NCBI GenBank assembly: GCA_002683405.1
Contig: NYTH01000046.1
Coordinates: forward strand, 1 to 36,242
DNA: 36,242 nucleotides
From: Salinisphaeraceae bacterium
GTDB taxonomy: Bacteria > Pseudomonadota > Gammaproteobacteria > Nevskiales > Salinisphaeraceae
Reading direction: 5' to 3'
In this document: positions 18,426 through 35,690 of the stretch, piece by piece
Layout of the letters: each line of letters starts with the position of its first letter
Position numbering within the stretch: the first letter of the stretch is position 1
Position numbers and translations under genes: made by a program
The notes under the pieces: model-generated
What the model saw: only the letters and a program-made list of their open reading frames with translations
The model's database searches: none
What the model was told of the DNA's origin: nothing

Positions 18426-19088
18426 ATGGCAAGTCAAGCCTGGAAAGTTACAACCGACCCGTTGTTCAACAACAACCCCATCGCGCTGCAGATCCTGGGC
18501 ATCTGCTCGGCGCTGGCGGTGACGAGTCAACTCGCTACATCGCTGCTGATGTGTGCTGCGCTGACGGCCGTGGTGGCGTTCTCGAATCTGTTCATCAGCA
18601 TGATTCGGAACTACATCCCGTCGTCGATCCGAATCATCGTGCAGATGACGATCATCGCCTCGCTCGTGATCGTCGTCGACCAGATTCTCAAGGCCTTTGC
18701 CTACGACCTGGCCAAGCAGCTTTCGGTCTTCGTGGGGCTGATCATCACCAACTGCATCGTGATGGGGCGCGCCGAAGCCTTCGCCATGAAGGAGCCGCCG
18801 GGTCTGTCGTTCCTGGACGGTATCGGCAACGGCCTGGGCTACAGTCTGATTCTCGTCGTGGTGGGCACCATCCGCGAGCTGTTCGGCTCCGGGTCGCTGC
18901 TGGGCTACCAGATCATGCCGCTGGTCAAGGACGGCGGCTGGTATGTTGCCAACGGCATGATGCTGCTACCGCCTTCCGCGTTCTTCATCATCGGCTTCTT
19001 CATCTGGGCCTTGCGCGCCTGGAAGACCGAACAGGTCGAGAAGGCGGACTACCAGATTCATCAGGTTCACAGAACCGAAGTCATTTAA
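18426..19088 (+). CDS. nqrD: Na+-translocating NADH:quinone reductase subunit D
   Basis: NqrD pairs with NqrE in the membrane to hold the intramembrane iron centre. The 220-aa protein has about six hydrophobic helices, with the conserved cysteines in LGICSALAV (about residues 24-32) and [13 protein letters not shown] (about 108-120), which are the expected ligands of the iron centre. The N-terminus with [12 protein letters not shown] is typical. It is followed by nqrE after 22 bp. Confidence 0.95.
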
Positions 19089-19110
19089 CCGGACCAACGG
19101 GAACGCAATC

Positions 19111-19719
19111 ATGGAACAACTGCTGAGCCTCCTGGTTAAATCGATTTTTGTCGAAAACCTCGCGCTGGCCTTCTTTCTGGGCATGTGCACTTTCCTGGCG
19201 CTGTCCAAGAAAATTTCGACCGCCTTCGGGCTGGGTATTGCCGTCATCGTCGTGCAGGGGCTGACCGTGCCGGTCAACAACCTCATTTATCAGCACCTGC
19301 TCAAGGAAGGCGCGCTGGCCTGGGCCGGTTTGCCGGACGTCGACCTGAGCTTTCTCGGCCTGATCAGCTACATCGGCGTCATCGCGGCCATGGTGCAGAT
19401 TCTGGAAATGTTTCTGGATCGCTTTGTGCCGGCGCTGTATAACGCCCTGGGCATCTTTCTGCCGCTGATTACAGTGAACTGCGCCATCCTGGGCGGCTCG
19501 CTGTTCATGGTCGAGCGCGACTACGGGTTTGCCGAGAGCGTGACCTACGGTGTGGGCAGCGGTATCGGCTGGGCGCTGGCCATTACAGCGCTGGCCGGCG
19601 TGCGTGAAAAGCTCAAGTATTCCGACGTGCCGGACGGACTGCAGGGCCTGGGCATCACTTTCATCACGGTGGGGCTCATGTCGCTCGGTTTCATGGCCTT
19701 TTCTGGCATTCAGTTATAG
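19111..19719 (+). CDS. nqrE: Na+-translocating NADH:quinone reductase subunit E
   Basis: NqrE is the structural partner of NqrD, inserted in opposite orientation, and supplies the other two iron ligands. The 202-aa protein has six hydrophobic helices, with cysteines in [14 protein letters not shown] (about residues 22-35) and [11 protein letters not shown] (about 126-136). The ELLS-like start, [12 protein letters not shown] and [16 protein letters not shown] at the end are all family-typical. A 70-bp gap with no evident signal separates it from nqrF. Confidence 0.95.
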
Positions 19720-33112: not shown

Positions 33113-33134
33113 ATTTTACTCTGACCCCATTTTT
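33113..33134. repeat. Dispersed repeat of the GGGGTCAGAGTAAAAT type
   Basis: On the minus strand this reads AATGGGGTCAGAGTAAAAT. I recall this motif as a recurrent intergenic and mobile-element-associated repeat in many proteobacteria. It sits exactly where the rest of the third attC site would be expected. Confidence 0.45.
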
Positions 33135-33142
33135 CTGTAGGT

Positions 33143-33149
33143 GTTAGGC
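33143..33149 (-). other. attC half-site (R'' box) overlapping a stop codon
   Basis: GCCTAAC on the minus strand fits the attC consensus RYYYAAC and includes the TAA stop of the nuclease gene, a common arrangement in cassettes. The expected partner GTTRRRY box is not found in the following 120 bases, so the site is truncated. Confidence 0.55.
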
Positions 33150-33953
33150 CACAAGTGCTTTGAGATCAATACCAAACTCGCTTTCTAGAAACTCTATGGT
33201 TTTGGGCTGACTATCTAACGACGCTCGGACGTGCGTGGTGGTATACAACCCGGATTTTGGTTTCCATTTTGCCTCGGACCTATTAACGGTCTTTATCCAT
33301 TCGGTGATAGCAACGTACTCGCAAGTTTCGTTAGAATCTACATTACTGGCTAAGCCCGGGCGTGAAAGTTCATGCTTGAGCAGCGGCAAGCCGTTGATTG
33401 TGACTTCGCGGACAGGTTTGGCTCGTTGCTTGATGCGCCCTATACCCACAAAACCATGCCTCTTTAGGTATGCGGCAACAATATCCCCTGGTTGGAACCC
33501 GAGCATTGCGTCTCTGAAGCGCGTCGCCTGCCCAGCAGATATAAAACCGAATTGCACATAGTCTTCCCAGCAGCGCGTAGGGCCATCGCCGACGTTGTAA
33601 TAGTAGATGCCTTTCTCAAAATCGAACCCTGATAGTTCGGCGTGTAACGTGTTGTGGCGCCGAAAGTTTTGCGAATAATGGCCCGACGAAATATTTGTAA
33701 GTTGTCGGCCAAGCTTCCATAGCAAGGTTTTTTCAACTAGCAGTGCGTCGTGCTCAGAGAGATTGCGAGCTATTACCCTAACGATTGGCTTAAGGCCGGC
33801 TTTGTGGATGGCGTTTATACGTTTGGACTTCTCTGAATCTGAATCTTCAAAAAGATGGGCATTCTTACGCGACCCACGGCCTTTCCCATAGTAGAACTCC
33901 TCGAAATTGCGAGGATCTATATACACGTAAACGTAATAGCTACCTTGCGCCAT
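33144..33953 (-). CDS. GIY-YIG nuclease with C-terminal PUA/EVE-like domain, cassette gene
   Basis: The 269-aa protein joins two domains. Residues 5-85 form a GIY-YIG nuclease of the LEM-3-like type: YVYVYIDP (7-14) in place of GIY, FYYGKG (20-25) in place of YIG, then Arg26 and Arg29, and Glu74 in LVEKTLLWKLG as the likely metal-binding glutamate. Residues about 116-235 (YYYNVGDGPTRCWEDYVQFG, then GFISAG and GDIVAAYLKRHGFVGIGRI) resemble the PUA/EVE-like module found at the ends of some defence and DUF proteins and thought to read modified bases. That match is from memory. It starts nine bases after an attC and ends inside the next, so it is a cassette gene. Its GC is well below that of its chromosomal neighbours. 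A role in defence is an inference. Confidence 0.75.
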   Translation of the reverse strand: MAQGSYYVYVYIDPRNFEEFYYGKGRGSRKNAHLFEDSDSEKSKRINAIHKAGLKPIVRVIARNLSEHDALLVEKTLLWKLGRQLTNISSGHYSQNFRRHNTLHAELSGFDFEKGIYYYNVGDGPTRCWEDYVQFGFISAGQATRFRDAMLGFQPGDIVAAYLKRHGFVGIGRIKQRAKPVREVTINGLPLLKHELSRPGLASNVDSNETCEYVAITEWIKTVNRSEAKWKPKSGLYTTTHVRASLDSQPKTIEFLESEFGIDLKALVA

Positions 33954-33962
33954 ATTCTTGGG

Positions 33963-34034
33963 GCCTAACGCTAAAGCTGAGTTGACGCTGCGAAGCGTAG
34001 CGGAGCAGCGGTCAACTCGAGCGCCTTGTTGGGC
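33963..34034 (-). other. Complete integron attC recombination site
   Basis: On the minus strand the 72-bp site runs from GCCCAAC (34034-34028, RYYYAAC) to GTTAGGC (33969-33963, GTTRRRY). Inner arms at 33979-33991 and 34005-34018 are complementary except for one extra base in the longer arm, matching the extrahelical base of folded attC sites. The ends AACAAGGCGC and TAGCGTTAGGC are typical and set the orientation. Confidence 0.85.
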
Positions 34035-34101: not shown

Positions 34102-34302
34102 CTATACGAACGGGGAGATAGCCCATACGACGCCCAGAATCATTATTGCGATTGATGATCTCACCATCCAGTAACCGTAACGATCACGATAATAATTGAG
34201 CGCTGCCTTATCTTTGGCGTCGAGGTCAGTGTGGCCGGTCGAGAACAGGATGGCTACACAACCAAAAATAAAAATAGCCGCACCAATAATGATATTTAGC
34301 AT
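34102..34302 (-). CDS. Two-helix small membrane protein, cassette gene
   Basis: The 66-aa protein has two hydrophobic helices (about residues 2-20 and 46-65) joined by a charged loop, DLDAKDKAALNYYRDRYGYW. I do not recognise a family. It lies between two attC sites in the same orientation as the other cassette gene. It lacks a clear ribosome site, which is usual for cassette genes. A 67-bp untranslated stretch separates its stop from the attC that follows. Small two-helix proteins are common in cassette arrays, sometimes as toxin- or stress-related genes, but nothing here shows that directly. Confidence 0.6.
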   Translation of the reverse strand: MLNIIIGAAIFIFGCVAILFSTGHTDLDAKDKAALNYYRDRYGYWMVRSSIAIMILGVVWAISPFV

Positions 34303-34394: not shown

Positions 34395-34511
34395 GCCCAA
34401 CGCTTAGTTAAGTGGCGTGCCCGAGGGCAAAAAAGAGAAGTGCGGCGGCCCGGTATCGCCCGACAGGGTGTTGGGTCTGCTGGGCACGCCCACTTCAACG
34501 CCTTGTCGCAC
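34395..34511 (-). other. attC site interrupted by the IS91-family element
   Basis: On the minus strand it ends in GCGTTGGGC (GTTRRRY at 34401-34395). Arms at 34410-34422 and 34482-34495 are complementary with one extra base in the second, the same bulge as in the complete site, around a 59-nt loop. At the other end ACAAGGCG matches the complete site, but the preceding GCCCA is replaced by GTGCG, marking the junction with the transposase gene. Confidence 0.7.
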
Positions 34512-35585
34512 ACGCCGCGGCGCGGATACCTGATATAGGTAATTTCCATGAAAGCGCCAGTGCCGTGACTGATAAGGGCGCTTGCACTGGCGGCATCGCG
34601 GTGGCTGAAAAAGACGTGTTCGTGTGCGGGCGATTTGTGGTGCATGCATTTGCTCGCCTAGCCGCGAGCGAAGCTGGCGGCGGTGGCTATGGTAGAGACC
34701 ATAGTAGCGTACCCGCTGCCGCCAGGCAGGGGGTACATGAGAGAGCAATCGGGCCAGGAATTGCTGCCTTTCCAGGGTAAGCCAGCGATGCTGGTGACTG
34801 CGATGATCAAAGTAGCGAAACCGCAGTTTGTTCTGTGCCGTGCATGTCAGACGGCGGTTGCCGATTGGACCGCCTTTGACGTAGCGAGCCAGATAGCCGG
34901 CGACACCGCGCCCATGGCTATAGCGTTTTTCGATCCGCACATGCCGGGGCTTACGGGCCAGCAAGAATAAAAGCCGTCTGATGTCTCTAACGGAACAGTC
35001 TCCCGGCAGAGCCAGCTTTCGTATGTCCAGGGCCCGACCCGGTAGCAGGAAATCGGAATCTATGGCTCGCCATTGATCTGCTGCATCCACGCCGCCAGCA
35101 GTCACCAGGCAGTGGACGTGCGGATGAAAAATCAGACTCCGGCCCCAGGTATGCTCGGCCAGCATCAAACCGGGTATAGCACCCAGGTGTCGAGGGTCCA
35201 CCAGCATCTGCTTCAGGCTATCCGCGGCACAGGCGAACAGCGTCTGAGAAAACCAGACTCGATTGTGCCGCCATAAATCATTGAGCTCGTGCGGCAACGT
35301 CATAACCACGTGGAAATGGTCACAGGGCAGCAAACGATCCAGAGTCTTATCCAGCCAGGCGGCTTTGGCCTGGCCGTTACATTGCGGGCAGCTACGATGA
35401 TGGCAACTATGGTGCCCTTGCCAGGATTCATGCCCTTCAGGGCAGGAGTATTCGAAACTGCCCATCACCGAGGTACGGCAGGCCATCATGGCTTGGGCCG
35501 CTTTATGCTCTTCGATCCTGAGTTTTCTTCGGGCGGCGTAGGCCGGAAATTCCTGTCTAATCAGCTCGGAAACAGTGGTGCGCAT
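34404..35585 (-). CDS. IS91-family (Y2 HUH) transposase with attC-derived C-terminus
   Basis: IS91 transposases initiate rolling-circle transposition from a single-stranded nick. The 393-aa protein has an N-terminal zinc-binding region (Cys48, Cys61, Cys66 and Cys69 around HHSCHHRSCPQC), HFHVVMTLPHEL, the HUH motif HPHVH (154-158), and the two tyrosines Tyr231 and Tyr235 in YLARYVKGG. AGAGGAAGAG precedes the start. The last 33 residues, from QGVEVG on, are encoded by the attC site, so the native C-terminus was replaced or extended at the insertion point. On the minus strand the tetranucleotide CAAG (34505-34502), a known IS91-type target, sits exactly at this join. Confidence 0.88.
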   Translation of the reverse strand: MRTTVSELIRQEFPAYAARRKLRIEEHKAAQAMMACRTSVMGSFEYSCPEGHESWQGHHSCHHRSCPQCNGQAKAAWLDKTLDRLLPCDHFHVVMTLPHELNDLWRHNRVWFSQTLFACAADSLKQMLVDPRHLGAIPGLMLAEHTWGRSLIFHPHVHCLVTAGGVDAADQWRAIDSDFLLPGRALDIRKLALPGDCSVRDIRRLLFLLARKPRHVRIEKRYSHGRGVAGYLARYVKGGPIGNRRLTCTAQNKLRFRYFDHRSHQHRWLTLERQQFLARLLSHVPPAWRQRVRYYGLYHSHRRQLRSRLGEQMHAPQIARTRTRLFQPPRCRQCKRPYQSRHWRFHGNYLYQVSAPRRVRQGVEVGVPSRPNTLSGDTGPPHFSFLPSGTPLN

Positions 35586-35690
35586 GAGCTGCTCTTCCTC
35601 TGCACGCGGAGCGTGCCTATGTGCAACAGCTGATTAGAAGGAATACATATAAATCTATATATGCAGTATTTATAGCGCTGTTTCGAATTG
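34506..35690 (-). mobile_element. IS91-like insertion sequence, far end uncertain
   Basis: The element starts at the CAAG target next to the attC. Near that end are the palindrome CGCCGCGGCG (34513-34522) and a hairpin TACCT-GATAT-AGGTA (34527-34541), suitable for an origin end downstream of the transposase. Upstream of the transposase, a GCACGC-GGA-GCGTGC hairpin (35602-35616) and an AT-rich stretch (35640-35680) lie near the probable other end, but I cannot place it exactly. No target duplication is expected for this family. Confidence 0.5.

Follow-up and report, generated by a model that had tools for sequence, protein, structure and literature searches.

The window, that is, the whole stretch of DNA analysed here, has 36,242 nucleotides and comes from a Salinisphaeraceae bacterium. 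The ORF list places in it, at 33144-33953 on the minus strand, a reading frame with an ATG start and a product of 269 amino acid residues, delimited by the ORF, a 39-row alignment and family matches. It is a real gene, as a further 38 relatives of full or almost full length align along it, at 43-69% identity to the window protein. The protein consists of a GIY-YIG nuclease domain of residues 6-91 (33681-33938, minus strand; PADLOC, PDB and column counts) and an EVE/YTH-like domain of the PUA superfamily, a candidate modified-base reader, of residues 114-262 (33168-33614, minus strand; domain model and PDC-S11 match). Residues 92-113 (33615-33680, minus strand) form a linker of low model confidence, and an acidic stretch, EDSDSE, occupies residues 36-41 (33831-33848, minus strand; alignment to 9u75 and Asp/Glu counts in the 39 rows). 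The AlphaFold2 model of the whole protein, made with the 39-row alignment, has a pLDDT of 81.7 and a pTM of 0.60, and its poor section spans residues 80-112 (pLDDT below 50). The mean pairwise identity in the 39 rows is 75% for residues 6-91 and 50% for residues 114-262, so the reader half varies more. NCBIfam has no family for the 269-residue protein, and Rfam at gathering scores finds nothing in the window.

Cassette setting of the gene

A complete attC site of 72 bp, belonging to the preceding cassette, is found at 33963-34034, and the ATG of the nuclease gene lies 9 nt further on. A relative of this site, 84% identical, occurs on contig C50 (167-235). Read from the sequence, the stop codon of the nuclease gene lies within GCCTAAC (33143-33149, minus strand); this is the left box of the attC that belongs to the gene itself, and the right half of that site is missing. 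Directly after the truncated attC stands the motif TGGGGTCAGAGTAAAAT (33113-33129, minus strand), as at a junction on contig C54; the motif is found at 6 places in the genome with at most one mismatch, and at 0 in the control. The preceding cassette contains a 66-residue ORF (34102-34302, minus strand), to which family searches assign no credible family, and an IS91-family transposase gene lies beside the cassettes (34404-35585, minus strand; NF033538, 4.6e-86). An integron integrase gene is present in the same genome (C45:3144-4076), scoring 393.6 bits with TIGR02249, above the cut-off, and 306.5 of 435 bits with PRK15417, below it. Since the window is the whole of contig C46 and the integrase is on C45, the arrays cannot be joined here.

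The original prediction described the gene as cassette-borne. For this genome the description is supported at DNA level by the attC upstream, the stop codon in a truncated attC and the integrase in the genome, but it does not extend to the family as sampled. Cassette carriage is not supported as a family trait: none of the 40 related loci, and none of 390 random stretches taken as a control, showed an attC-like site up to 200 bp from the gene in a home-made consensus-plus-fold test that was gauged for sensitivity on the window's own site only, is blind to sites reaching past 200 bp and had just 112 bp of upstream sequence at L018. A looser threshold also marks 19083-19141 and 34395-34476 in the window, and single matches are no proof.

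Judged by eye, the arrays at 33113-33149 and at L076:4494-4527 (C54) both end with a stop codon in GCCTAAC and no further attC. The motif GAAAAAT(G/C)GGGTCAGAGTA then follows in both arrays; on contig C42 it flanks an IS200-like Y1 transposase gene, presumably REP-associated. A segment of 51 bp at 35625-35675 recurs with 96% identity at C54:101659-101709, close to where a further cassette-like array begins. In the array beside the integrase on C45, a gene for a TIR-domain protein (L065:1448-2350; TIR_2, 2.5e-28, also ThsB_TIR) adjoins an attC-like site and is possibly a second defence cassette.

Nuclease and reader domains

The Pfam family LEM-3_GIY-YIG matches the window protein above the gathering score (E 1.4e-8), the PADLOC model PD-T4-3 matches residues 5-97 with its positions 15-114 of 256 (E 5.7e-13), and phrog_5356 of PHROGs is found at residues 5-96. 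In the PDB, the CMoRE structure 9u75 is matched with an E value of 7.5e-7 by sequence and 1.1e-11 by the 39-row profile, and 9U7U with 5.7e-10 by the same profile. The profile match to the CMoRE structures spans profile positions 7-100 and ends at residue 100, and a structure search with the predicted model matches the nuclease half to CMoRE by fold too. As described in PMC12923530, CMoRE is the new name of PD-T4-3, a type IV restriction enzyme that has a single component and acts on DNA with 5hmC or glucosylated 5hmC, which protects against T-even phages and was characterised in 2026 (PDB codes 9U75, 9U7U, 9U7Z and 9U8D). The same text gives it an extra tyrosine (GIYxY-YIG) and, in most but not all CMoREs, an inhibitory acidic loop.

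The residues expected for catalysis are retained. All 38 rows that extend to positions 7 and 9 have Y7 and Y9, and all 39 rows have Y21, R29, E74 and N87. Position 26 is variable (Lys in 26, Arg in 4, Thr in 4 and Cys in 2 of the 39 rows), hence R29 is the right one of two candidate arginines, and with this choice made the prediction of intact catalytic positions (Y7, Y9, Y21, R29 and E74) was correct. Residues Y7, Y9 and Y21 align with Y17, Y19 and Y31 of CMoRE, the numbering offset being worked out by hand, and R29 and E74 align with Arg and Glu of 9u75 in the profile alignment. The third tyrosine of the GIYxY-YIG motif is present in the window protein and its relatives. Among residues 34-43, two or more acids are present in 38 rows out of 39, while no row has a run of four acids like that of CMoRE. 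On this sequence evidence, residues 6-91 are assigned as a GIY-YIG nuclease domain of the PD-T4-3/CMoRE kind.

These counts depend on how the relatives were collected. A single peptide-pattern scan of genome contigs gave 40 distinct loci, fetched by six short patterns (residues 16-23, 46-53, 110-117, 148-155, 207-214 and 226-233); invariance inside these patterns, including that of Y21 and A228, is partly built in, while Y7, Y9, R29, E74, N87, W129 and W219 lie outside them. The 39 rows leave out the broken copies L031 and L041, and L001 is the window itself. In L083, which was found without the patterns, position 17 is Ser and Y21 is kept.

The C-terminal half could not be placed in the same way. 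Pfam gives nothing credible there; its EVE profile has no match in the window protein and weak ones in 4 members of the 39 (best E 0.039). Compared by profile with ordinary EVE proteins, 25 in number, the domain aligns in the segment GD..Y...GxVGI at a probability of no more than 20-23% (E about 0.001 for a single comparison), and the C-terminal sequence profile has no credible match among PDB sequences (best E 0.063). Because Pfam EVE is not reached and the profile comparison is weak, the assignment of the sensor rests on the predicted fold. The AlphaFold2 model of the C-terminal domain by itself has a pLDDT of 92.7 and a pTM of 0.87. Foldseek relates this model in the PDB to VcaM4I (2.6e-4), YTHDF2 (3.4e-4) and PH1033 (8.8e-4), the last of which we take to be an EVE protein. 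Ranked by Z, the leading solved structures among the matches listed are PH1033 (11.2-11.5), MJECL36 and the EVE domain of the restriction enzyme VcaM4I (10.3-10.8). In a second structural alignment, among the matches listed, PH1033 has a Z of 11.2 (rmsd 2.9 over 120 residues), MJECL36 10.8 and VcaM4I 10.3; the EVE prototype 2eve there has 9.4 and YTH domains 9.0-9.9. Two tryptophans, W129 and W219, are present in every one of the 39 rows. Residues 114-262 are predicted from this model to have the EVE/YTH fold of the PUA superfamily, rather than one unrelated to PUA/EVE. The proposal of a nuclease joined to a PUA/EVE-like module is in agreement with these results, through Pfam, PADLOC and PDB matches for the GIY-YIG part and through the predicted fold for the C-terminus.

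Relatives, neighbours and domain exchange

The C-terminal domain is also found with another nuclease. The C-terminal part of one PDC-S11 model of PADLOC matches residues 115-262 (3e-31) and that of a second matches residues 113-265 (1.1e-23); we take PDC-S11, from the PDC label, to be a PADLOC candidate. Proteins with a NucS_C-like nuclease and the same C-terminal domain occur on plasmids and in relatives of the window's genome. Each of the four tested (L079, L043, L045 and L051) has a lengthwise match to PDC-S11, with E values between 1e-107 and 1e-153; NucS_C is above the gathering score in three of them (L043, L045 and L051), and the score of L079 lies below it. An alignment of 28 rows that combines both kinds, 20 rows being taken from the 39 GIY-YIG proteins and 8 from others, has W129, F137, G141, G167, G170, G172, W219 and A228 as invariant residues. 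A second match in the window's own genome, C49:26524-26850 (5.6e-5), has the C-terminal domain only. The presence of the sensor on a NucS-like nuclease as well fits the expectation for a modular reader, and these results indicate that an EVE/YTH-like reader is common to two unrelated nuclease types.

The nuclease half is likewise found without this reader, in 6 phage records representing four different phages, in 2 viral contigs and in genome G038; the proteins of G038 and Vibrio phage PVA23 match the PD-T4-3 model. In view of these phage relatives, the nuclease by itself is no proof of host defence. In PVA23, the protein (L082:2001-3656, 552 residues; LEM-3-like GIY-YIG 6e-16, PD-T4-3 2.5e-15) is encoded next to genes annotated as DNA methyltransferase, GTP cyclohydrolase 1 and 6-pyruvoyl-tetrahydropterin synthase, and this set looks like a DNA base-modification cluster.

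The family is sparse and scattered. There are 12 phylum names among the 39 rows of the tree, three rows being without a phylum. The tree requires 12 phylum changes, where the least possible number is 11 and shuffled labels give a mean of 19.9, with a value as low in 0 of 200 shuffles. The labels are clustered beyond chance, so the gene is for the most part inherited within phyla, or passed among neighbours, and is not rampantly transferred from one phylum to another, a point against the defence explanation. Some transfer is suggested by 5 changes each in Pseudomonadota and Bacteroidota and by Oceanimonas, which sits within a starred group otherwise of Marinobacter. Any match is found in 9 of 61 genomes (the window's and its relatives), full-length only in the window's own. 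Of 369 genomes of the class, 2 match at 1e-30, namely the window's own and G364, which has a broken copy (L083:1501-2016) with most of the nuclease deleted, a frame change and the reader part still open. L031 is broken by two stops, L041 is also broken, and a plasmid copy starts at residue 23 and adjoins an IS3 transposase. In all, four broken copies were seen, in which assembly errors are possible. Sparse occurrence and broken copies fit a defence gene.

The neighbours of the relatives were surveyed in 146 ORFs of 90 to 1500 residues, at most two per side, from L002-L040. For the 25 commonest families, the commonest PADLOC model occurs in no more than 4 of the 146 at 1e-15 and the commonest Pfam family in no more than 3 at 1e-8. 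The search for a fixed operon partner gave none; an all-against-all comparison of 279 neighbour ORFs links ten locus pairs: L006/L008, L006/L030, L025/L026 and L034/L037 at more than 70% identity, and L008/L030, L012/L039, L016/L034, L016/L037, L022/L033 and L029/L036 weakly. With unfixed neighbours and matches in 2 of the 369 class genomes, one of them a broken copy, the homologues are not core genes set among housekeeping genes.

Twenty neighbour proteins, chosen by the author and without a control, were searched singly; 7 match a PADLOC model at 1e-15 and 13 match nothing. Type III restriction, with an N6/N4 methylase adjoining the type III enzyme, is found at L008, type I restriction and an AriA/Old-like protein at L012, and a type II methylase at L020; the other matches are Ppl (L009), mad3 (L016) and RecD (L036). 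In this chosen, uncontrolled sample, restriction genes beside some relatives are a hint of defence. An odd setting for a defence gene, which counts against this role, is found in two Chloroflexota (L034 and L037), where the next gene encodes a molybdenum hydroxylase (MoCoBD_1; L034:7983-11620, 1e-84, and L037:7992-11632, 2e-82) and overlaps at its start with the nuclease gene; in L034, the gene of the FAD subunit of this hydroxylase directly precedes the nuclease gene.

Proposed action and alternatives

The architecture is that of a nuclease with a candidate modified-base reader, with no obligate methylase partner in the neighbour survey. The nuclease half is matched by CMoRE, a type IV enzyme with the same order of N-terminal nuclease and C-terminal sensor, and by this analogy the protein is probably a single-gene modification-dependent (type IV) endonuclease. 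We consider it quite likely that one gene here encodes an EVE/YTH-like reader with a CMoRE-type nuclease that would cut modified phage DNA and spare the host. The C-terminal domain would flip out and bind a modified base in incoming phage DNA. Until then the GIY-YIG domain would be restrained by the acidic loop, and perhaps also by the sensor and linker; after base binding it would cut the DNA, with Y7/Y9/Y21, R29 and E74 arranged around one metal ion. Host DNA without the mark would escape cutting. DNA cleavage, base flipping, the base read, autoinhibition and phage protection are inferred. GIY-YIG enzymes work with a single metal ion and with a water molecule that a tyrosine activates (PMC11037411). 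The EVE domain of VcaM4I has a hydrophobic pocket into which it flips 5mC/5hmC, and once EVE and linker are deleted, the nuclease becomes unspecific and toxic (PMC7897488).

The window's own genome sets no constraint on the target base, since neither the Dam nor the C5-cytosine methylase models searched gave a match in it. Among 12 genomes with relatives, one of which (that of L031) has a broken copy, Dam was found in 3 (L004 Oceanimonas, L007 Psychromonas and L009 Pseudoalteromonas) and a C5 methylase in 4 (L005, L007, L009 and L030). If Dam is active in those three, Dam-type 6mA is not the target there. A phage-specific modification is the more likely target, provided that the methylase copies are active, and orthologues may differ.

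Other explanations have to be weighed against this one. The protein could be a divergent CMoRE that shares both the 5hmC/glucosyl-5hmC target and the mechanism of that enzyme, since nuclease half, motif and domain order agree. Whole-protein structural alignments to CMoRE also span both domains (172-187 residues, though with an rmsd of 18-19 Å), a hint that the CMoRE sensor might be a hidden EVE. However, the sequence match to CMoRE stops at residue 100, the PD-T4-3 model is matched at positions 15-114 of 256 only, and the CMoRE authors report no sequence or structure homologue of their sensor (PMC12923530). CMoRE is not among the 50 structural matches listed for the C-terminal domain alone; by fold, its sensor may be related or unrelated. 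On balance this explanation is improbable.

GIY-YIG nucleases are known as DNA enzymes, and this weighs against a reader of modified RNA, comparable to YTH on m6A, whose nuclease would act on RNA or nearby DNA, for example in an abortive system. YTH domains are indeed among the nearest folds; however, DNA is what the nearest nuclease to have been characterised cuts, and its protection does not involve abortive infection (PMC12923530), and such a role is very unlikely. We give just as little credence to a homing-type or repair nuclease of the LEM-3-like kind, in which the EVE-like domain would read damaged or structured DNA. The Pfam family name, the annotation of one phage relative as 'putative homing nuclease' and the metabolic gene cluster in the two Chloroflexota could be cited for it, but neither insertion site nor neighbour is fixed, and the distribution in the class is too sparse for a repair gene.

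The favoured reading, a reader-guided type IV enzyme, can be compared with known systems. Like CMoRE, the window protein is the product of a single gene, of about 260-270 residues, with an N-terminal GIYxY-YIG nuclease and a C-terminal sensor, and has an acidic stretch at the place of the inhibitory loop. However, this stretch is shorter, its acids are interrupted by serines without a four-acid run, and the EVE/YTH-like sensor does not match the CMoRE sensor in sequence. As the CMoRE sensor looks unrelated, the window protein appears to represent a sensor swap. VcaM4I shares the fusion of an EVE reader to a nuclease and the type IV logic, and is among the best fold matches, but in the accessible text of PMC7897488 its nuclease is HNH, its EVE domain is N-terminal and it binds 5mC/5hmC. 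The PDC-S11 proteins have the same C-terminal domain and invariant residues in common with the window protein, while their nuclease is NucS_C-like and not GIY-YIG. Ahi29725I and Apa233I are single-gene GIY-YIG nucleases with a modification reader, which differs in being a winged helix for 6mA in GATC (PMC11037411, accessible part). The accessible text of the 2020 EVE/DCD survey (PMC7641849) reports EVE-GIY-YIG fusions computationally and predicts modification-dependent restriction; the same two superfamilies are fused there, a comparison by description with members unnamed.

The original prediction of an undescribed system goes too far, as the nuclease half groups with the published CMoRE (PMC12923530) and GIY-YIG/EVE fusions were already reported (PMC7641849). 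The parts are known, and what is new is their combination, a CMoRE-type nuclease with an EVE/YTH-like reader. In a search excluding most subscription journals, we found no paper on the testing of this pairing. A broader proposal, to be regarded as tentative and rather doubtful, is that the proteins represent a separate one-gene restriction family, in which a self-inhibited CMoRE-type nuclease is joined to an EVE/YTH-like reader that circulates among unrelated nucleases, also in the NucS-like PDC-S11, and reads a modified phage base that is neither Dam-type 6mA nor ordinary 5mC nor 5hmC.

The combination indicates that the CMoRE nuclease is a module that a different reader can aim. It also provides a concrete mechanism to test for the candidate PDC-S11, and the small enzyme may serve in detecting a modified base.
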